Positions 1-56,066 of a DNA stretch of 64,000 nucleotides are shown here, piece after piece (positions within the stretch are counted from its first letter, which is position 1; each line of letters starts with the position of its first letter). The position numbers were made by a program, and so were the translations under genes. This DNA is from Chrysophaeum taylorii (lineage: Eukaryota; Sar; Pelagophyceae; Pelagomonadales; Pelagomonadaceae): NCBI GenBank assembly GCA_029834535.1, contig JAQMWT010000667.1, positions 62,001-126,000 of the forward strand, given 5' to 3'. The notes under the pieces were generated by a model. The model was not told the DNA's origin and made no database searches. It saw nothing but the letters and a program-made list of their open reading frames with translations.

Positions 1-686
1 TCGACGGCACGACGTTGACCACGCCCGACTACACTTTTGAGGCCAGCAAAGCGGCAATCTTCGCCCCGGGAGCGTGGCTCTCGCCATTGTCGAAACGACT
101 CTTCAATTTCGAGATCCCTACCCGCGTTACCGCCGAGTGCGTTTCGTACCACCGACCAGCGGACGCGTCCTACTCGGTAGCCAACGGAATGCCCGTCTTT
201 ACGATGCGTATCGACAACGGCCTCGGGCCCTTTGGCTACTACGGCATCCCTGCTATCGACATCCCAGGGGTCAAGGTCTCGGCCCACCACTGCGGTCCCG
301 TCCTCGATTCGAACCAACTTTCCGGCGCGGCCAACCTCCCCGATCGCGACGAAAACGTTCTCGACGCCAACTCCCGCCTCGTGCGAACATTTTGGGGCCC
401 AGACCGCCTCGACCCCACGCCCTTCTACACCCAGCGCTGCCTCTACACCGCCACCCCCGACCACGATTACGTCCTCGGCCGCCTCCCCTCGAACCCTAAA
501 ATTATCCTCGCCGGCGGCGGCAGCGGCCACGCGTTCAAGATGGGCCCCGCCATCGGCGAAGCCCTCGCCTGCCTCGCCCTAAACGAGCCCACGCCCTTCG
601 ACATTTCCCAATTCAAACCGGACCGACCCGCCCTCGTCAACGCGCGGGGCCACTTTCCTGTACCACAGCCCGCCTATTGCAAGTAA
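1..686 (+). CDS. Sarcosine oxidase/MTOX-like FAD amine oxidase, 3' part (5' cut by window)
   Basis: The reading frame is open from the window edge (first full codon at base 3) to the TAA at 684, so only the C-terminal ~227 residues are present. The block C-L-Y-T-A-T-P-D-H-D-Y followed about 20 residues later by A-G-G-G-S-G-H-A-F-K matches the C-terminal FAD-binding part of monomeric sarcosine oxidase, N-methyltryptophan oxidase and peroxisomal PIPOX; the Cys at the start is where these enzymes attach FAD covalently. Known family role: oxidative demethylation of N-methyl amino acids, giving formaldehyde and H2O2. The protein ends in Y-C-K, so a PTS1 peroxisomal signal is not evident. The N-terminal Rossmann GxGxxG is outside the window. 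Family assignment is firm; substrate is not. Confidence 0.85.
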   Translation, partial: DGTTLTTPDYTFEASKAAIFAPGAWLSPLSKRLFNFEIPTRVTAECVSYHRPADASYSVANGMPVFTMRIDNGLGPFGYYGIPAIDIPGVKVSAHHCGPVLDSNQLSGAANLPDRDENVLDANSRLVRTFWGPDRLDPTPFYTQRCLYTATPDHDYVLGRLPSNPKIILAGGGSGHAFKMGPAIGEALACLALNEPTPFDISQFKPDRPALVNARGHFPVPQPAYCK

Positions 687-1149
687 CGATCTCCACCAGC
701 ATAATACGAGACTATCATGCCAGCTGCGGACTCACGGTCGTGGTAGGGCTGTGCGGACGCGCCGTCATGGAATAACAAGGAGCCTGCCTCTGGGGGCACA
801 TCCAGGGACTTGTTGCGTGCGTGCCACCCGGAGGGAGCAAATTATTGCGCATCATTAATATTGGGCGGGTGTGAGAGAGTAAGTAGGGTCCACGGACGCA
901 TCTTTTTTTCTCATCAGACTATTATGTTGCAGTTGGTCTATAGTACAAAATATTCTTTTGGTACCACAGATAAAAATGTATTATGTGCAAAATGTACCGT
1001 AAATCTACGAACGATATCTCCTCCTCTTCTTCTTCTTCAAGGTCGTCCGTCCGTGTCGTCAAAAGGCGAGGGCGTTTCCGACGACGAATCAAAGCGCCGA
1101 CACCCGCCGGCAGGTCGACCCGTTCTGCTGCTTGGGTAACGCAGGCACC
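687..1149. other. Intergenic, no gene seen
   Basis: Downstream flank of the oxidase. It holds short T-rich runs and a TCTTCTTCTT tract near 1026-1040, and I see no supported coding sequence or RNA gene. Confidence 0.5.
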
Positions 1150-2370
1150 CAAGTGGCGCCTCCTCGTGCCCTCGACATCCCGCACCTCCCGGTACGCGAG
1201 ACAACGGCGATGCGTAGAACCAACGAGGCAGGTCTACTACGGCCACTCACGGCACCTTCCAGTTCTTCACGGTGATCGAGTAGGTGCTGACGATGATAGG
1301 GCAAGCTCGGTCTCTGGAGGGTCCAGGACAACGGTTTCATCCGCGAGTACGTCGCCGAGTGCGCCGACAGTTTAGCGGCAGGCTCCGATATCCATCCCAA
1401 CTACACCGATCGATCTCCCCCACTGGTACTGCACGATGTGGCTGGATCCGTACGCCGAGGGATAATATCACGTGCCAGCGTCGTCGGTTCGCTCAAGAAG
1501 CGTGCCGGTCTCGAAATGAACGAGCTCAATCGTGAGAGAGAGGTACCCCCGAGAGGTACCCCCTTTGGAAATGCCTGCGTCAATAAACGTGTTCAACCAA
1601 ACCATTACGCAGAAAATGTCGGGTGAAAAGTAGAACCTCCTCGAGTGGCGACAAGCGACGACGTTGAATTCTACGAGATCGAGCATCTATTTTTTAACGT
1701 GCCGAACATTGTTGACACGGCGATCCTCGACGGCAACAAACATTTCCTTTCAATCGGCTTTGATGAATGAATGAATGACCAAAAAAAAACACAGCAAGCG
1801 ACAGAGTACCTCGAGTTCCAGTTTGAGGACGCTGCTTTCAAGGCGGTGTTCGGCACGTTGCTTTACTACGGTGTCAATCATCCCAATCGCCGCTTCGACT
1901 GCCTTTCCGGCGGGGCTTGCCCTCTCCGCGGCGACGATTGGGCCTACTATCCTGTCGGCAACTCCGGCTCTGGCTGGCCCACCAACTACCAGGAGGTCAC
2001 TCCGCGCTGCGACGCTGTTACCGCGTGATCATCAAGCTCTACGTCGACCCGTAATTGTTCGTTGGTAAGGCCGGGTTTTGGGATCATCGAAGTCGAATAC
2101 GTGATGGATGCCACAACATCTACGGCTACTTCACCGATCCGCACCTACCATCGACATGAGACCTCAGGCGGGTATCTCGCACCGCCGGGCTCGAAAGACT
2201 TCGAGTAGGTCAACGTCGCGCTTCTTGTCTGTCCTGCCGTCGTCTCGCCAATCACCTACGTCGCTGACCCGCGCGAGGACGGGGTTACGTGGTACGAGTG
2301 TGGCGACACGTCCTGCGGGGTGTTTGCTCGACTATCGTCTCGTGTTTTGTGGTCAGTGGCACTAGTGTGC
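1150..2370 (+). pseudogene. Unassigned coding-like blocks (decayed or intron-rich gene)
   Basis: Several short plus-strand blocks read like protein but lie in different frames and are broken by stops: a block near 1245-1440 containing F-Q-F-F-T and later E-Y-V-A-E-C-A-D, one at 1800-2025 containing D-D-W-A-Y-Y-P-V-G-N-S, and one near 2110-2340 containing Y-G-Y-F-T-D-P-H and then D-P-R-E-D-G-V-T-W-Y. A GT donor after the F-F-T codons and a CAG ending at 1329 would join two blocks in frame, so small introns may explain part of it. I do not recognise the family. Either a gene with several tiny introns or a decaying gene; no function is proposed. Confidence 0.25.
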
Positions 2371-5045
2371 GAGCGTGGGTGTATATTATCGCTTGCAACT
2401 TTGATTCCAGGTTCAAGGATGGCACCTGGGTGAGCGAGTAATGGACAAAGCCCTGCGATGCGATGGGCATGAACGATGCGATCTCCGCCCTTGTCAAAAC
2501 ACAGCGTTTGACATCGACAAAAAAAGGGTGGCCTCCGTCGCGTGCGGCAAATACTCTAAGAACGTAGCCGTCGAGACGACATTTCTGCACACCCAATATC
2601 ATGACGCAAAGCTGTTGATCCGATGCTTTCAAGACCCCATCTGATGCCTCCGGCACATCACATTGGTGTATAGACCCAACAATGCATTCGAGTGTCCTGA
2701 TTCTCAAAACATACGCGCGCGCGCGTGCGCGGGTGACCCGCTGTAAAAGAGCTAGGGGCAGTTGAAGGCATAGGGAAAGCCGCGAGGGCCAGATACTCCC
2801 ACATATGCAAGGATTAGAGCACTGTCCAAAACCTGACCGATACGCTGCACCATGTTATAGTTTTCAAACTGAGGGAGGGTCATTCTCCGTGTCGGCGCGT
2901 GGTGCCAGAGTGATTCAATTGGTGCATGCACCGGACCATCGAGCGCGCAGATGCTGAAGAATAGGACGAGGGATCGTCGCCTTCACGTCGAATTGCCGCC
3001 AGTCGGCCAATATAGAGATGACAGAGCGGTCCTTTCGCGGGTTCCTTCCCAAAAACCGAAACGACGTGATGCTGCGTTGAAAAGTACATGGTAACTTTGA
3101 CCCTGACGCACACGTCCGTGCCGAAACCAAAGTGGTTGTAGGGTAGTCACCCACGAACATAACTAAGTAGTTGTTGTTATCTGGCGGCCAAAAATGGGCG
3201 ACAATAACTCAGGTCAGCCGTCGGCGCTGTCAGCAGCGCGACCGATCGCGCTGTTCGCGCACGAAATAGACCAAGATCTTGCCGTAGTCGGAAATTCAAA
3301 TGTCGTCACTTATCTTCTCCGTGATACCGCCGTGAGTAGAACCACCAACCACAGTCGTTGGGTTGGCGCCTTTGGCTGCGACGTCCCAACAGCGTATCCA
3401 AAAGTGCGAGCGACGCCGATTTCTCGTGCGTCTGCGCTAAAGAATGAATGCCGACTTGCGACACTTCGACTTCGCCCTGGCTTGTCGCGGCGGGTGCCGT
3501 CGGCACAATCGTCCAGTCACGCGGTGGGACGCAGGGCCTAGCTGCCCGCGAAATCAGGGGGGCAGTCGCCGTTATAATGGTCCGGGTCATCATCGTTCTT
3601 CGTCATCATCATCATCAGACTCGTCCTCGAGAGCTGCGCCAATGCGGCGGCACGGCACGTGTCGTCGAGTTTCTTTTGAAGCAGGGTCCAGGACACAGCA
3701 GCCACCCTGGCAATCGTTCGCTCAGACCTTGCTCGTCTGTAGCCATCCCGCGGGCTGCGTCGCAGGCAGCTTCTTCTTGGACGCTGTCGTCATCACTTCG
3801 AAGGTGCAGCAACGCCGCGCCGGCGCTATAGAGCCGGGGTCGCCTCTCCGCAATTCTTGCTGCCAGCCATCATGCTCTGTCGTCAAGCGACCTGGCGTAT
3901 GTGCATGTACGCATCCTGCAAAGAATCTCAGAATATCTTAGGATTTGTGTACGCGTGAGGGTCCCCTCCTACGCGTGGACTGTAATTTCTGATGATGTTC
4001 TGAAACTGCCGGGGATCAATCACCACCATCGCATGAATTTTGATTAAGAGCTAACTAAATAATAAACGGGTTGTGGGCGGGCGGGGACAGCACGAGGTGG
4101 GTTGGGATAGTAATTTCGAGATGTGGTTTCGGCTGGGTGGTCGCGACGTCAATCGGCGGCGACCTCCGAAAGGCAAAATCACAAAGGTGGTTGTTCGATG
4201 GCGAGTATTCATTCGTCTCTGTAGTGCCTTTGTCTTTTTTTCGAAGGTCCGCCCTTTATTCATTCACGCCCTACCGCAGCCATTTTGACGCGTGTTGCAC
4301 AGATGCGCAATCAATCAATCCGTGGTCAAAAAAAGTGTTGAGTCGGCGTAATAAAGGAATCCGGACTTGTGTGGAAAAAAAGTACCTCGCATGTCGCGGA
4401 CATGAACAAAAGCCAGACCGCCGCCGCCGAGCAAAAGTTCACTTCATGGAATCAGCTCAAGCTGAGACGCGGCGGCGCTGGATGATAGGATTGATTCGCT
4501 GCTGGTTTTTCCCATTCGCGAGTAAAATACTCGAGGGTGGAGAACTTTTTTTTGACGGGTACAATTTAACACTTGTGTGTTTGTCCCAAATCCTCGCAGT
4601 ACCGAGAGTTAGGCTCTCACTGTTAGTCGTGGGCCCACGAGACGCAGTAGCGTTAGAGGCATGTCGAGTTGTGCATATCAAGCCATCATGAGAGGGAGTC
4701 GAGTTTTGCGGATGTTCTTCAAGACGGAGGGGATTTTAATATAGTTGGTGGGAGGGTGTTGTTGTCCCTGACCGAAGAGAACACACACACGAGGTGAGGT
4801 TTTTGTTGTTTTTGAGAGCGTGTAAAAAATAATTGCAAGGAGGCAGCTTTTGACACGAAACGAAAAAAAAAAAAAATGTGTTGGCCCCAAACAAAAACAA
4901 AGAAACAGTTATTAGTGTGGCAAGAAGGATGTTCCGAGAAGATAGACGTCCGTTTAGGTTACAACAAGCGTTTGAAAAGTAAAGGTTGGTCAGGAGAGAT
5001 GCTCCGCCGCGGCGGCGGCGGCGGCGGCGGCGACTAGATTGTTGC
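2371..5045. other. Long gene-poor stretch
   Basis: No convincing gene. It contains a (CG)n-like run at about 2708-2725, a CATCATCATC tract near 3600, A-rich and T-rich runs and an (A)14 tract near 4865. A short plus-strand reading frame at 3194-3541 (115 residues) and minus-strand frames near 2880-3160 have no recognisable motif. The last part, to 5045, is the upstream flank of the gelsolin-like gene, including a CGG-repeat run at 5010-5030. Confidence 0.4.
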
Positions 5046-48167: not shown

Positions 48168-49901
48168 TCAAGCGGCCGCGACCGAGCGCGGCGGCGTGAC
48201 CGAGCGCGGAGCTGCGAGGTTGTCGATGCGGACGTGCGCCGTACGGGTCTGAAGGTTGGCGCGCGCGGCGTTTCGCCAGCGTGTGAGCGTGTCCATCGCC
48301 TCGTCGTATCGCTTGTTCCCGGTGCAAGCTTTGGCGAGCTCGATGTTGTTGACGTCGACGCACGCGAGGGCTTCGACCGTGTGGATCCCCTGGCGCTTGA
48401 GCTTTGTGGCCTTGGCGACGCCGATACCCTGGAGGTCGGTGAGCTCGGCGACGGGGGCTGGCGCGGCGGGCGGAGGGGCAGCACGGGGCTCGTCCATGAG
48501 GACGGCGGGCACGTGGTACTCGTTCGAGGTCTTGGCCGGCACCGCGAAGCGGCGCGCCGGTGGGCTCAAGTCGGTCGTGACGCGCGTCGCCGCGCTCCGC
48601 TCGCTGCTGTTGCTCCGGCTCCTCGGGGGAGCTTGGTGGAGCTGCTGGGCGAAGTGTCGCTGTCGCGGGAAGCGGGTCACGGGCGCCGGGGGAGGCGGGC
48701 GCTGGGGCACCTGCGGGAACGGCCGCGCGAACCCCCGGCGCGCCAAGACGGGTCTCTCCGGTTCCTCCTCTCGTTCTTGCTCTTCTTCTTCTTCTTCGAG
48801 GACGAGGTCTTCAAAGTGAAAGGCCCCGTCGTTCATGTAGGGGACGCCGCACGGGAGGGCGGTGTTGGCGTCGAGCTCGACTTGCTGGTCGTCGATGAAG
48901 AAGCGAAGGCTGTCGATGAGAGAATCCGTCGGCGAGATGTCGCCGCTGCTGCTCAAAACGTCGTTGTCATGGAAATCTTTTTGGGTGGAGGCGTCAACTC
49001 TGGTGAAGTCGGCCTGGAGGCTCGCGAGGACGGACCACGAAGGCTCGCGCGCCTCGAGGATCGTGCTGGTGCTCGAAGAGGTGCCGCTGCTGCTCCGAAA
49101 GCGCTTGGTCCAGGAATCGTCGTCGTAGGCGGCGTCGAGCCGGCGCGTCGGCGCGCCGTCGGGGCAGTCGACGTCGCTCGACTGGAGCTCGAACGCGCTC
49201 GAGGACTGGTGTGAGAGGAGACGGCCGGGCATCGCCTCGCGAATGGCGTCCTCGTCCGTCGGGTCGACGAGGCGGAATTTTGGAACTTTTTGGCGCCCCC
49301 TGGCGAGGCGTTCCTGGGCCAGCGTGAAGGCGTCGTCGATGTTCGCGCCGCGCGACAGGATGTGGTAGAAGAGGGCCGCCAGCATGACGGCGCCCTCCTC
49401 GACGCACGCCGATCTCCAGCCGAACGCCCGCGAGTCGAGCCGGTCGGCGAGCTTTGACGTGTGCGACGCGTTCGCAAACACCAGATCGACCTTGCGCTTC
49501 CGGAGCACGTCCACCAAATCGGAGAGGCTCGATTTCACGCCGACCTTGGCGCTCTGGAGTTCCCCCAGCTTCGAAGACACCGGTACCAGCGACACGACTT
49601 CGCACGGTAAATTCCGGCGCGCGTCGCCCAAAGAACAGTGGTGACCGACCAAATGCACGATCATCTTCCGCCGCTTCTTCCATTCCGCCTCGAGCGTCGC
49701 GTCCAGCTCGCTCGCTTCGCACTCGACCACGCGCGTCCCCGACCCCGCAAACGCCTTGTGAATCGCTGCACCCTCGGCCGACCGCCGCGCCGCCGACCCC
49801 GTCTCACCGTAAGACACCACCACCACGTCCAGCTCGTGCTGGTGCGCCGCGAGACGCAACTTCCCGACCGCTGAACTCAGGGACGTCAAAAGCGATGGCA
49901 T
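48168..49901 (-). CDS. CHAT-protease-like protein with C-terminal helix-hairpin-helix (intronless paralogue 1)
   Basis: 577 residues, one exon. The N-terminal ~200 residues follow the CHAT (caspase-like) plan: a strand V-D-V-V-V-S, the His region I-V-H-L-V-G-H-H-C (residues 81-89), the strand and turn D-L-V-F-A-N-A-S-H-T (139-148) and the helix A-C-V-E-E-G-A-V-M-L-A-A-L-F-Y. In CHAT peptidases the turn normally carries the catalytic Cys (A-C-x-S/T); here it is Ser146. A long Ser/Pro/Glu-rich middle (200-485) is probably disordered. Residues ~487-550 form a helix-hairpin-helix-like module (D-L-Q-G-I-G-V-A-K-A-T-K-L, G-I-H-T-V-E-A-L-A) ending L-T-R-W-R. A paralogue lies at 54.2-56.1 kb on the same strand. 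The fold call is moderate; the function is unknown. Confidence 0.7.
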   Translation of the reverse strand: MPSLLTSLSSAVGKLRLAAHQHELDVVVVSYGETGSAARRSAEGAAIHKAFAGSGTRVVECEASELDATLEAEWKKRRKMIVHLVGHHCSLGDARRNLPCEVVSLVPVSSKLGELQSAKVGVKSSLSDLVDVLRKRKVDLVFANASHTSKLADRLDSRAFGWRSACVEEGAVMLAALFYHILSRGANIDDAFTLAQERLARGRQKVPKFRLVDPTDEDAIREAMPGRLLSHQSSSAFELQSSDVDCPDGAPTRRLDAAYDDDSWTKRFRSSSGTSSSTSTILEAREPSWSVLASLQADFTRVDASTQKDFHDNDVLSSSGDISPTDSLIDSLRFFIDDQQVELDANTALPCGVPYMNDGAFHFEDLVLEEEEEEQEREEEPERPVLARRGFARPFPQVPQRPPPPAPVTRFPRQRHFAQQLHQAPPRSRSNSSERSAATRVTTDLSPPARRFAVPAKTSNEYHVPAVLMDEPRAAPPPAAPAPVAELTDLQGIGVAKATKLKRQGIHTVEALACVDVNNIELAKACTGNKRYDEAMDTLTRWRNAARANLQTRTAHVRIDNLAAPRSVTPPRSVAAA

Positions 49902-50430
49902 ATCCTTCGCCCGAACTTGCTGCCTTCCAGACGTCCGGTCGACCCCAATACCTTGAACAATCCAAGCACTTTTTTTTGACCAAGAAGGAGGCGATGTATT
50001 CGAGGAATTAATTACGTTCGGCTTACATATTTATTATTTATTTACTATTTTAAGATCTGGTAGGGCGAATTACAGAGAATTTTCAGTATTTAGAGTAAGG
50101 TGACGTAAACACACACCTTTACCCTTGCCTCGCGCACGTTCCAAACGGGAACATCCCTCCCATCTTTCTTCTTCGAAGAAGAAGAAGATCTCTCGAAGAA
50201 GATCTTCTTCGAAGAAGCATCCCCATCTTCTTCGATCTCGGACGTTCTCGAGTGAATGTGACCAATTCAAGTCTCTACGCCGATGTTCATTGGACGAGGA
50301 GTATATGGCCGGCAGGGACTCCAAGGATGATCATTCTTGTGCGGCCGTTCATGCACAGAGAGATGAAGCGTTCGATAGGCAAAAGCGACGCGCTGTCTCC
50401 GCGGCCGACAGCGTCCGACGACTCGAGTGT
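49902..50430. other. Upstream flank with palindromic GAAGAA/TTCTTC cluster
   Basis: At 50167-50219 the self-complementary motif CTTCTTCGAAGAAG occurs twice with related half-sites between, and a TTCTTCGATC lies at 50229-50238. No gene is supported. Confidence 0.5.
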
Positions 50431-50725
50431 GTGCGCCACGCCGCCAGCTCCATCAGTCCGCTGATTTTGCGAGCGCTTTCATGAATGCGCCACGTTCCCC
50501 CAGTACAAGCCGCTCGAAGTCGAGGAAATGAGCGTCATCCTCTTCTCCGGCGTCCGCGGCTTCGTCGACGAGGTCGACATCGCCTCCGTCCAGGCCTACG
50601 AGACCGCCTGCCTCGACCACCTCAAGACCTCACATTCCGAAATCTTCTTCCAGATCAAGGCAGACAAAATGGTCATCACCAAGCCAATCTCGCCAAACTC
50701 TGCGACGATGAAAATCGTCGCCTAA
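50431..50725 (+). pseudogene. Fragment of mitochondrial ATP synthase alpha subunit
   Basis: The frame from ~50495 to the TAA at 50723-50725 reads F-P-Q-Y-K-P-L-E-V-E-E-M, then V-I-L-F-S-G-V-R-G-F-V-D-E-V and F-F-Q-I-K. This matches the C-terminal region of F1 alpha (Q-Y-x-P-x-x-V-E-E-Q-V, then I-Y-A-G-V-x-G-(Y/F)-x-D). Just upstream, in another frame, L-H-Q-S-A-D-F-A-S-A-F recalls the preceding L-A-Q-Y-R-E-V-A-A-F-A-Q-F helix. The nucleotide-binding P-loop part of alpha (~500 residues) is absent, so this is a broken C-terminal copy. Assignment rests on motif recall. Confidence 0.5.
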
Positions 50726-52318
50726 CATCACCTCTTTTGCATTCTCTTCCGCGCGAGGATCCTCTCTTCTGGCGTGCCCACCCTCTCTCTCTCTCCGCGC
50801 TCTGTACACACACCTTCGAATGTCGATGTTAGCGTCGCTCGTCACGTTAACGTCACGTTAACGCCGCTCGTCGTGGGGAAAAGAAATGCGCTAGTACTCA
50901 CGACGTTCGTGCAGGTCGCGAATGTTGCAAGCCACTTCAAAGTTGTCAGACGACGAACCACACAAGCCGACTCGAGGGTTTGAACCGCGCCGCTCCGGTG
51001 CGATTCCGTCATCTGTCCTGGCGCCAATACTCACGATGTTCTCGTCGTGGCGAATAAACTTGCGCTGACGCCCGTGACGTTGCTGAGGGTCGCGAGGAAT
51101 GCCAGGCAGCGCGAAGTTGTCAAACGAACGGTTTGACTGCGAAACGACACTACGCTCAGCTTAGTAAGCTGTCCGCTCGAACGGAGCCACCACGATCAGG
51201 GGCCGCAGTATGTGTATGCGTATGTCGAATGACCCAAACACCGCACGGCTGGCCATACACCCGCATCTACGTACCTTAATCTAGACAAGGAGAGGAGAGC
51301 TCGAGGAGGAGGAGGAGGAGGGCGCGAACGCGCTTACGCTTATGTGCCAGCTCGGCGAAAACATTCCGACGAAGCGAGGCGCACCGCCGAACAACATACA
51401 TTGAACGCTAAAGGACAAGTGTCATTAAACGGAGTGCCTCACGGTCGTCGGCCAACGGGAGGTCGGGACAATACGTAGTGCTACATCTTCGAGTCGGACG
51501 ACGGCGTGGTCTGTTACCAACCAAACAACCCGCCTCGTTAGGAACAAGAGCAAGAGCTGCTGAGACTCGACGGAGATTCTCGCGCATTTCTCAATGGCAA
51601 TAAAGGAAGGAGAAGATGGGGGTGTCGAGAAAGCATGGAAGAAGCCGCTGGTGATAACTCGACGGGCCCAAGGAAGGCGAGATTCGTGCGTTAAGGCGAT
51701 GACGATCAAGTAGGGCACTGATGCTGTCACGCTTGTCTTATTGGAGCGCTTCTTCGTCTACGGCGCGCAGTACATCTCCAAGCGCACGTTCGACGAATGG
51801 CAGTTCCGTGCCCTTCTCGATGCATATTACAAGGCGGGTGGTTAGAAGTAAAACGCGTTCCTCACGAAAATGGGGCTCATCTACTGAGTCAGGGGCGAGT
51901 TTGATACTTCTCTGTGACTCGTCAGCATGTCGTTGCGATCAAGTGCGACGTTGCCAAAAGCAATCAACATGGGGAATCTCTCCGCGATGGCGGCGCCTAA
52001 GCGCAAGTCCATCGGTTTCTCTATATTCCAATGTTTTTTTAGGTTTGACTCCTCGTCATCTGCATTGACCTGCCGCGCATTGCCGACGGCACATCCGTGA
52101 CCACGGCTTTTTATGGGGAAAATGGTATGGGCGTCGAGTACCAGCGGGCCGCCGTGAGTGTTAAGCAAGACCGCGCCGTCCGTCGCAGGAGAACTAGGGT
52201 ATGAGGCGGAAGCCTGTTCCGTACACAACATTCGCAGGGTCTCGCCGTCGACAATCGCCGATCTCGAGCACAAAAGGAAGGAATTGCCATTGAACTCTTT
52301 CCCCAAGGTCAGCTCGAC
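50726..52318. other. Gene-poor stretch with a diverged duplication
   Basis: Contains two related ~95-bp segments (50870-50965 and 51035-51125), a GAGGAG run (51306-51320) and no supported gene. Minus-strand frames near 51881-52369 are without motif. Confidence 0.4.
50870..51125. repeat. Diverged direct duplication, two ~95-bp copies
   Basis: CTCGTCGTGG...GCGCT...GACGTT...GGTCGCGA...GAAGTTGTC recurs in the same order at about 50870-50965 and 51035-51125. Both copies can be read as similar peptides (L-V-V-G-K-R-N-A-L-V-L and L-V-V-A-N-K-L-A-L-T-P), so this may be a duplicated coding segment now decayed. Confidence 0.5.
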
Positions 52319-53460
52319 GTGAAGAAGACCCACGACATGTGCAAGTGTTCTTCGCACTCGAAGTTTCACTACGAACGAACTCTCGTACGTCGTCTATACC
52401 CCCAAGTCTTAGCACCGTCGCTTCGGATCGTGCTCGATCTGAGAGGCACTTGCGTTAGAGCGCGCAGCCGCCCACTGCACTCCGAACGCGGCCAACAGAG
52501 ACTGAAGCTGCACCAGCTCCAAAATTATCTTGTTTGGATGCTCTCCGACACCAACCGAGAGCAAATTGCCGAGTTCGCGGGTATCCTGCGCATGACCGCC
52601 AGACACCCCGACGAAGCTGGTCCAGCTCGAATCGCTCTTTCTCGGCCGTGCGCTACCGCCCTTAAGATTGACATGACCAACAATATTCACGCGGACGACA
52701 GCTCGGTCGTGAAGCTGGACAATGCCGCCGAGTCGCCCCTGATGCGGCGCGAGAAGACGGGAGAGTATGACCTCATGCTGGTCGGTCAGGCATGCCTCAA
52801 TCGCGCCCGGTTCAGAAGCATAGCTGCGGTGTTGCGGCAACAAATAATAAGTCAACCCAGACCTGAACTTGTCCAATGTCTGCGAGCTTAGTGCCACCCT
52901 CCTACACTTCCGGACCCTCTCTTGACGCCCACAAGACGAAATCGCTACGTCAGGTATGCCACGCAAGCCTTCTACTACCATCGCGATAACGTAGGAAACG
53001 AGGCCGGCGGCGAGGCAGCGACGGTTTTGGCGGCCAGCCGTAGCTGCTCGCGAACCCGAGGGTGCGATGCTCACAGCAAGGAGTCCGACACCGACGACGA
53101 GGAGGTGGAGGACGACCACGTGTGCCTCGGGGCTTGGGCGGTTGTTGCGATGTAAGTGGTGGAGTTGTATGTTGAAGAAGATGACCAACCTCCCAACTTG
53201 AGCGACGAGCTTCAGTACAAAAGGAGCGACCCTACCTCCCCAATCAATCTCGCGCGAGCTTCGCGCGGCTCGATCGGCGCGCTCCAGGCCGAGGGTTTCT
53301 GCGAGCGCGTCATCTCTGGTGGCAACCTCGTCGTCGTGACCGAGGGCAACACCTAGCTTGACAATGAGGAGCTCGACAAGTTCGACGTCCTGCGCATGAA
53401 AGTGACTTCATGAACTGGTCCCGTTCCAGCGCCACCCGCGGCAAGTTCCGCAAACGCTCG
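52319..53460 (+). pseudogene. Uncertain coding blocks, product unknown
   Basis: A 190-residue plus-strand frame runs 52319-52891 (with N-Y-L-V-W-M-L-S-D-T-N-R-E-Q-I-A-E-F). A second block at 53156-53440 reads E-R-V-I-S-G-G-N-L-V-V-V-T-E-G-N-T, a stop, then L-D-N-E-E-L-D-K-F-D-V-L-R-M and, after a frame change, D-F-M-N-W-S-R. The second block has strong protein character but is interrupted at least twice, suggesting a decayed gene. The family is not recognised and the two blocks may be unrelated. Confidence 0.25.
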
Positions 53461-54234
53461 AGTCCGTGAAAAGCAAAGCATTCCTTGAATGATATGAATT
53501 CCTCGAATGCCCTGACGCTTTTCCGGCGACTCCGCTCTTCCTTATTTCGGGTGTTTATTTCGGGTGTTAGTGTATTAAAAAAAACTGTTAAAAGACCCTT
53601 TCTTTCTGGGTGTCAAGGTGCCCCGACGAATTAATTTCCTTGGCTCCTGATATGCGATTGAAAGGATTTGCGTCATCGTCTTGTGACGTATTTTTGCGGA
53701 CTCTGGCAGCAGCGACGATTTTGGGCACTTTCCAGGCGGCTGAAAGAATCAGAATGAAGGGACGCGTAATGAATGGGTGCAGAAAGGGGCGCATAGAGCT
53801 GAGTATCCGCGGCGCCACCGTATCGCAGTTGATGCATGCCAAGGATGTGGGGGAGAACAAGAAAAGTGTGAAAGGAGATTCCCTCAGGGTCGAAAGCAGT
53901 GCCGCCAAGCAATGTAGTCGCCGCCGCTGCCACCCATGGAATATGGGGTAATCCACCAAGCCCGCTGGACTATAAAATGGCGGGACAACGCCCGCTTTAT
54001 TTATTAATTTATCTCAAGAGAGAAGGTGTAGCGGCCGACCGACGAATACCGAGCATCCCGCGAATCGCGCGACGTGGGCGCACAGGACTCTTCCCTAAAC
54101 ATGGGATAAGATCAATTATAGTTCACCACGCTGTCCCTAAGGAGGGACGAAACGACAAAGCGAGGCGGAGTAGTTCCTCCATTGGGATCCCGCAACATTT
54201 CATTTCCCGCGAGCCGATTCCATGCCGTAGCCGG
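53461..54234. other. Intergenic; second copy of a dispersed repeat
   Basis: The segment 53911-53960 (GCCGCCGCTGCCACCCATGG...ATGGGGTAATCCACC) resembles 34450-34500 (GCGCCGCCATTACCACCCAT...ATGGGGCAATCCACG). A perfect short palindrome GTCCCTAAGGAGGGAC is at 54132-54147. It is the 3' flank of the gene ending at 54235. Confidence 0.5.
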
Positions 54235-56066
54235 CTATTGCTGCACGGCGGGGGGGCGCTCCGCGGTCGAGTCGTCGCGGGCATAATGTCGTACGAGGGC
54301 GGGAGCGGGCACGCACGGTTGCGAGGAAGTGGGAATGTCGCCACTCTCCGTCGCGGCGTTCGTCGGCGAGGAGGCCGCGGCCGCCTTTTGCTGCTTACTC
54401 GAAATCGCCCGAAGCTCGTGCGCGAGGCGGTTGTCTAAGTACTGGTTCGCCGTGTCGCGCCAGCGCGTCAGCGTCTGGATCGCCTCGTCCCATCGACCTG
54501 CGCGCGAAGTCGAGTCAAACGTCGACTACCAAAAAGGTACGCGCGGTTCCCAGTCGCTCGCACGGCCAAACTGGCGTCGGTCAGGTCCTGCGCGTCGATC
54601 GCATCGACGATCTAAACTCAAAGCGACGTACCACCCACGCGAGCGCCTCAATGGTCATGATCTGCAACTTTGTTGTCAAACGACGCGCGCAACAAACGCT
54701 CACGCCGAGCTTGGAAAGCTTGTTAATCTTAGCCTCGCCGATGCCGACGAGCGTGGACGGCTTGAGCGGCGTGCCGTCCTCGGGACGAAAATCTTTTTTG
54801 TTAGTCATTGCGGCCCAGACGCCCGTCGTCGCGGGCAAACCCGGGGGTACCAAGGACGAACGGGTCTTGCGCGACCTCGCCGGAGGTGACTTGGGGGGGT
54901 CACGTCGCGACACATCCGAGGAGGCCTTGGCGGAAACGACGGCGCCGGTACCGTCCTCTTTGTCGGCACCTCGAAGACGACGAAATCTGGTAGGGTCCTC
55001 GGGCGGCGGCGGCAAAGTTCGCTCGTCACCAACACCCGAGGCGGCGAGTTGGCGAGGCAGATCTGCCCTAGGCGACGTCGTCGTATCCGATACAACCCTT
55101 CGTCTCTTCACTCGTCGTTGCTGTTCTATATCGAAGACGTCGTCGAGGTCGCGGTCCATGTCCGCGACGGTGACCTCTCGAGGAAAATACGCCTCGCGTG
55201 CGGCGGCGGGGTGCCAGCCGTCGGCTCGGCGCGAAGGCACGACGCGGTCGTCGTTGGCCTGCGAGAAAGCGGTGGTGGTGCCGCGAATTCATTTCATCAA
55301 GGGAAGATCCGACGATGGAGACCCACAACAACAGGAGTTTTGTGGTGTCCACAAAGGAAGAGACACCACGGACCGTCATCCACGGGTCGTCGAGCGAGTA
55401 CCGACGGAGAGCCGCCAAAGGCGGATGATGGCGTCTGGCTGGCGCGCGCGTTTTCGCCGCCGCCTCTCTTCGTTGCTGGCGCTCCAGCAGGAGCGCGGGA
55501 GGGTTTGTGACGGAGCGCATGGCGTTCTCGAAGGCGTGCTCTACCGGGAAGCCGTGGGCGATCGCGTCGTAAAAGAAGCTGGCGAACAAAACGGCGCCTT
55601 CCTCGACGCACGCCGTCGCCCAGCCAAAAGCAAGGGGCGCGAGCGCATCGGCGAGCGTGCGCGTGTGCGAGGCGTTGCAGAAGACCAATTCGAGAGAGGG
55701 GCCGGCTTGCTTGATGAGGTTGACAAAGGCGCCAAAGCTCGTTTCCGTGTCAATTATATCTCGCACGAGCTCGAGAGCTTCCCCTACCGAGTCGACGTGC
55801 AGCACCTCTTCGGAGTGCGTTCCCTCCTCGGGTGCCGTCGCGCAGTGATGCCCCAGCAGGTGGAGCCAGACTCTCTGGCCCTTGCCGCACACACGTTTGA
55901 GCGTCGCTTCGAGAGTGACGTGCGTGCATTCCACCAGTCGGACGCGCTCGCTCTCGTCCAGCTGGTCGAGTGCCGCGCCGATCCCGTTGGGCTCGGCCTC
56001 GAGCCGAAGCGCGGAGGCCTTGCCCTTGGAGAGAAGGACGACCTCCGGCGGGCCAGTGATGGGCAT
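54235..56066 (-). CDS. CHAT-protease-like protein with helix-hairpin-helix tail (intron-containing paralogue 2)
   Basis: Model of five exons: 56066-55374, 55258-54704, 54661-54632, 54587-54530 and 54497-54235 (about 532 residues, stop TAG at 54237-54235). Introns are 115, 42, 44 and ~32 bp; introns 1-3 keep frame at good GT-AG sites (GTCCGT, GTGAGC, GTACGT), while intron 4's donor is less certain. The spliced protein parallels paralogue 1: W-L-H-L-L-G-H-H-C, L-V-F-C-N-A-S-H-T, A-C-V-E-E-G-A-V-L-F-A-S-F-F-Y, then G-I-G-E-A-K-I-N-K-L, G-I-M-T-I-E-A-L-A-W-V-D and W-D-E-A-I-Q-T-L-T-R-W-R. Ser again replaces the CHAT Cys. The first ATG in frame (56066) is used; a pyrimidine tract and CAG just upstream may mean a further 5' exon. 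Not a pseudogene once spliced. Confidence 0.65.

Follow-up and report, generated by a model that had tools for sequence, protein, structure and literature searches.

The window, a stretch of 64,000 nucleotides from Chrysophaeum taylorii (contig JAQMWT010000667.1, positions 62,001 to 126,000), carries two paralogous genes, referred to here as gene 1 (48168..49901) and gene 2 (54235..56066), each encoding a CHAT-type domain with serine in the nucleophile column joined to a C-terminal helix-hairpin-helix (HhH) tail. All features of the two genes given below lie on the minus strand. Both proteins belong to a set of five domains with serine or alanine in that column, found beside cysteine-bearing CHAT-HhH proteins with an N-terminal hydrophobic segment. 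As serine replaces the cutting cysteine and the HhH tail is present, the two proteins are probably regulators or scaffolds rather than enzymes. On balance, we favour a soluble pseudo-CHAT that acts by binding and probably tunes the anchored cysteine paralogues.

Gene 1 is a single open frame of 577 amino acids that requires no intron, comprising a CHAT-like domain (approximately residues 24-212; 49266..49832), a low-complexity middle in which residues 241-480 are richest in S, P, A, R, D and E (disorder being judged by composition only) and the HhH tail (approximately residues 484-552; 48246..48452). The domain gave a profile match to the CHAT protease SAVED-CHAT of type III CRISPR systems (PDB 8tl0), and the structure model of gene 1 aligned to the same entry, its best structural match, across residues 23-215, which bears out the caspase-like CHAT layout proposed in an earlier sequence-only reading of the window. 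A caspase-type CHAT fold is almost certain for both proteins. The blocks on which that reading was based, GHHC (residues 86-89 of gene 1), NASHT (144-148) and ACVEEGAV (165-172), were found in gene 1 and in the first exon of gene 2, with the cysteine directly after the second histidine in both; TLTRWR lies in the gene 1 tail. No Pfam family was matched by the gene 2 exon, and the eight rows given by a PDB search with gene 1 as a single protein were all ribosomal S19, at a best E of 0.61. A C14 metacaspase identity was rejected: with the limit set at E 10, Peptidase_C14 (PF00656) was absent from the Pfam matches of both gene 1 and the exon of gene 2; the whole-genome search (70.8 Mb, 697 contigs, as for all whole-genome searches here) located C14 matches at two other places. 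The same type of search showed that in-frame relatives of gene 1 exist elsewhere in the genome.

Gene 2 opens with an ATG at 56066, and its final frame is open up to a TAG stop at 54237-54235, the middle and the introns being uncertain. Its first 207 amino acids (55446..56066) align with the N-terminal domain of gene 1 at 36% identity, and gene 2 was recovered with gene 1 in the whole-genome search at E 2.7e-24; chance resemblance was ruled out on these two grounds and by the 8tl0 profile match. The tail of gene 2 (54420..54760) lies in frames other than that of exon 1. When frame-keeping splice options were enumerated, short introns rebuilt a tail resembling that of gene 1, TLTRWR included: putative introns 1 and 2 (54703-54662 and 54631-54588, both GT-AG) and a putative intron 3 at either 54544-54498 (GC-AG) or 54529-54498 (GT-AG), with other options existing. 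Since several splice options fit, and a third junction like that of gene 1 requires a GC-AG intron, the exact structure of gene 2 is uncertain. The two proteins had been described as both ending in LTRWR, which holds in frame for gene 1 and, for gene 2, only after splicing of the putative introns. The gene 2 tail is thus apparently interrupted by three very short introns, whereas the gene 1 tail needs none.

Homologues were used to identify the residue in the nucleophile column. In an alignment of eight paralogous domains this column holds serine in gene 1 (Ser146, 49464..49466), gene 2 (Ser133, 55670-55668), L009 and L011b, alanine in L011a and cysteine in L012, L007 and L006 (L numbers denote loci of this genome, with contigs given as G000:C numbers); the motif cysteine is also present in 8tl0 and in five further CHAT-like rows (L028, L033, L003, L034 and L031). 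Thus the catalytic cysteine of CHAT (PF12770) is missing from both proteins at this column, while the catalytic histidine is kept as His87 of gene 1 (49641..49643) and His73 of gene 2 (55850-55848), as had been read from the letters; all four codons were checked. Histidine occupies its column in seven of the eight domains, L007 having asparagine followed by histidine (GNHSS). The kept histidine need not mean catalysis, since L011a has alanine yet an intact GHHC loop. Alignment and structure match together show the fold kept and a catalytic residue replaced, as in pseudo-peptidases of clan CD. The other four Ser/Ala domains are 30-37% identical to gene 1.

Two further features follow the same division. 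All three cysteine proteins have an 18-residue segment between nucleophile and following [GC]W, against 11 to 15 residues in all five Ser/Ala domains; in 8tl0 the length, taken to the aligned G, is 17. A strongly hydrophobic stretch of 19 residues precedes the domain in each of the three cysteine proteins (2.49-2.87), and all five Ser/Ala domains lack one (0.52-1.48). In trees drawn with a midpoint root, with support values that are fair rather than strong, a branch supported at 85/83 (14 rows) and 89/90 (12 rows, nucleophile column masked) set the Ser/Ala domains apart, the smaller set of rows being the larger one minus L031 and L033, which have long branches. L007 and L012 were next to join, the resulting seven-row group having support of 82/92 (14 rows) and 89/91 (12 rows). 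The substitution is therefore a family trait, as had been suspected. Outside both trees were L001/L002 and L005 (CHAT hits), L032 and a broken copy on C22. By eye, L005 has no cysteine near the nucleophile column, L001 reads LAACESG, and the C22 copy (L029/L056, G000:C22) is of the anchored CHAT-HhH type, apparently broken across frames and with arginine in the nucleophile column. L011 (G000:C315, 1468-3158) is an adjoining pair of CHAT-like genes, one with alanine and one with serine.

The proteins of the Ser/Ala branch are, to judge from these residues, very likely without proteolytic activity; that they regulate the cysteine-bearing paralogues is a tentative proposal made by analogy. A membrane-anchored CHAT-HhH protein may have been duplicated, one branch then losing anchor and nucleophile (the direction of these losses being presumed) to give soluble pseudo-proteases. 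Through the CHAT fold and the common HhH tail, these would occupy partners of the cysteine paralogues and could thereby set the threshold of the membrane-anchored forms or scaffold them, in a manner likened to cFLIP or to trypanosome metacaspase 4 working with active relatives. If so, an anchored cysteine CHAT and soluble Ser/Ala copies with one tail would constitute a natural enzyme and pseudo-enzyme set in which to study the tuning of algal cell death or defence. Several points weigh against this account. The gene 1 structure model has a mean predicted local distance difference test score (pLDDT) of 55, Foldseek with this model gave no match at E <= 0.001 (best 8.2e-3, caspase-4), and gene 1 missed the CHAT PF12770 cut-off of 24 (12.4 bits for the whole protein, 17.8 for the domain alone), although its relative L012 exceeds it (28.4 bits). 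The Ser/Ala group comprises only five domains from one genome, and its support of 83-90, under a midpoint root, is not starred. With asparagine in the histidine column of L007, L012 is the only tail-bearing cysteine protein that keeps both residues, which may leave just one protein as active partner; both catalytic residues are present in L006, but no tail was detected there, nor in L011a or L011b.

The tail itself bears on a second explanation, in which the HhH module would tether the pseudo-CHAT to DNA, its CHAT fold offering a platform for protein binding at chromatin. The C-terminal HhH module named by the sequence-only reading was recovered: the isolated gene 1 tail scored 29.3 bits against HHH_5 (cut-off 27), the whole protein falling below at 24.8, and seven of eight tails matched HHH_5 at E up to 0.1. 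By sequence, the nearest solved relative of the tail is the polymerase IV HhH (4.5e-4), and net charge is positive in all eight tails (+3 to +11), all of which would suit DNA anchoring. However, the gene 1 tail is the least basic of the eight (+3), L012 and L007 bear the same tail together with an anchor-like segment, and the single-sequence model of the tail is poor (pLDDT 61, with the first hairpin drawn as one long helix). HhH and SAM-like folds also bind protein. From its sequence the tail may bind DNA or protein, and we consider anchoring to nucleic acid unlikely. The tails resemble the HHH_5 and DUF4332 helix-hairpin-helix domains in having a GxG hairpin followed by helices, but add a T[GK]N...A..T...W motif, and this module is common to CHAT proteins, an ankyrin protein and small frames of this genome. 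With two tails as whole-genome queries it was found at nine places (the C22 match being weak, 0.016), or ten with the split tail of gene 2. A CHAT-like domain accompanies it at six of the ten (gene 1, gene 2, L009, L012, L007 and the broken C22 copy), the remainder being one ankyrin protein and three small frames. In the ankyrin protein (L014, G000:C351, 823-2028) the module precedes the repeats.

The remaining explanations are all improbable. Cys89 of gene 1 (49635..49637, codon checked), two residues after His87 in the paralogue alignments, might take over catalysis or bind metal with His87 and His88, and a cysteine at this position does occur in every Ser/Ala domain but L011b, four of the five, and is absent from all seven cysteine-bearing rows of the 12-row alignment. 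In the caspase fold, however, a cysteine on the histidine loop would lie away from the nucleophile position, residues 93-122 of the model, just after Cys89, have pLDDT below 50, and common descent alone may account for a cysteine shared by related sequences; such a moved nucleophile, or metal or redox site, is very unlikely. Equally poor odds attach to functionless, decaying gene copies: the nucleophile is gone and the related C22 locus is broken across frames, but in five diverged domains the histidine and the fold blocks persist within open frames, the tail is kept in three of the five (in gene 2 via the putative introns), and gene 1 is open across all 577 residues. A serine-type enzyme in a caspase fold, with Ser146 as nucleophile and His87, is slightly less credible still: serine in four and histidine in all five domains of the group would fit, but not the alanine of L011a beside the same GHHC loop, the shortened segment after the nucleophile, the replacement by His, Ala or Arg of the glycine that follows the histidine in L012 and 8tl0 (GHG; also missing in L006 and L007), or the description of trypanosome metacaspase variants with serine for cysteine as inactive (PMC6657590). 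No better can be said of a rewired branch in which the GHHC cysteine with His87 and His88 would form a new active or metal site and the HhH tail would bring the protein either to DNA or to CHAT-HhH partners anchored in the membrane. Of the pseudo-peptidase, serine-based and new-dyad readings first offered, the pseudo-peptidase is thus favoured because of the alanine in L011a; fold, serine column, HhH module and family trait were upheld, and the choice among the readings was settled only in part.

The best-known setting of CHAT proteases is bacterial defence, as in Craspase and SAVED-CHAT. Gene 1 shares with 8tl0 the caspase-type CHAT domain, GHG and NAC of the latter aligning with GHH and NAS, but 8tl0 has cysteine and a SAVED sensor, whereas here the column holds serine, the domain is joined to an HhH tail and the host is a eukaryote; a Pfam search of gene 1 and the gene 2 exon gave no SAVED domain. 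Two articles (PMC6657590; PMC6426788) describe Trypanosoma brucei metacaspases 1 and 4 as inactive, with cysteine replaced by serine, and MCA4 as a pseudopeptidase whose processing is carried out by a relative that is active; the serine in a caspase fold is shared, but those proteins are C14 metacaspases, a family that gene 1 does not match. Pseudo-orthocaspases of phototrophic bacteria also have serine at the nucleophile, are presumed to derive from active forms and are compared with cFLIP, according to PMC6426788; they differ in having a Tyr-Ser pair, where histidine is kept in a CHAT domain here. The coupling of small adaptor domains to effectors is an idea put forward in PMC8195603. The literature search gave no match for CHAT with HhH or with pseudoprotease, its coverage being thin for subscription journals, and among the matches listed the CHAT domain was not paired with algae. 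Neither a viral origin nor a close relative among prokaryotes gained support. Viral contigs held 23 pattern matches and genome contigs 242, but tblastn, with a reach limited to close relatives, found no relative behind any of them; phage records gave no tblastn match at E 0.01, and PADLOC matched none of four proteins.

The genome has 84 matches to chlorophyll-binding antenna proteins; one of these proteins, compared with the PDB at E <= 1e-50, retrieved 15 sequences, each of them named as a fucoxanthin chlorophyll protein or FCP, which marks the host as a fucoxanthin-type alga. Its wider CHAT set is worth study because the domain is also joined here to a STAND/NACHT-type ATPase and to leucine-rich repeats. 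L003 (G000:C84, frame 1420-3519) combines CHAT with such an ATPase in an NLR-like layout, with nSTAND1, NACHT and NB-ARC over their cut-offs, and L034 (G000:C391) reads likewise by eye. In L033 (G000:C671, frame 1-1911) leucine-rich repeats precede a cysteine-bearing CHAT domain. L028 (G000:C324, frame 298-3498) is CHAT-like, just below the cut-off, and further downstream weakly matches the N-terminal helical domain of MLKL (E 5.8e-4, below cut-off). L031 (G000:C163, minus strand) has a cysteine-bearing CHAT-like block and, after it, the sequence MPTGAGKS, which by eye resembles a helicase motif, and L032 (G000:C168) is a partial near copy of it with the motif cysteine present.
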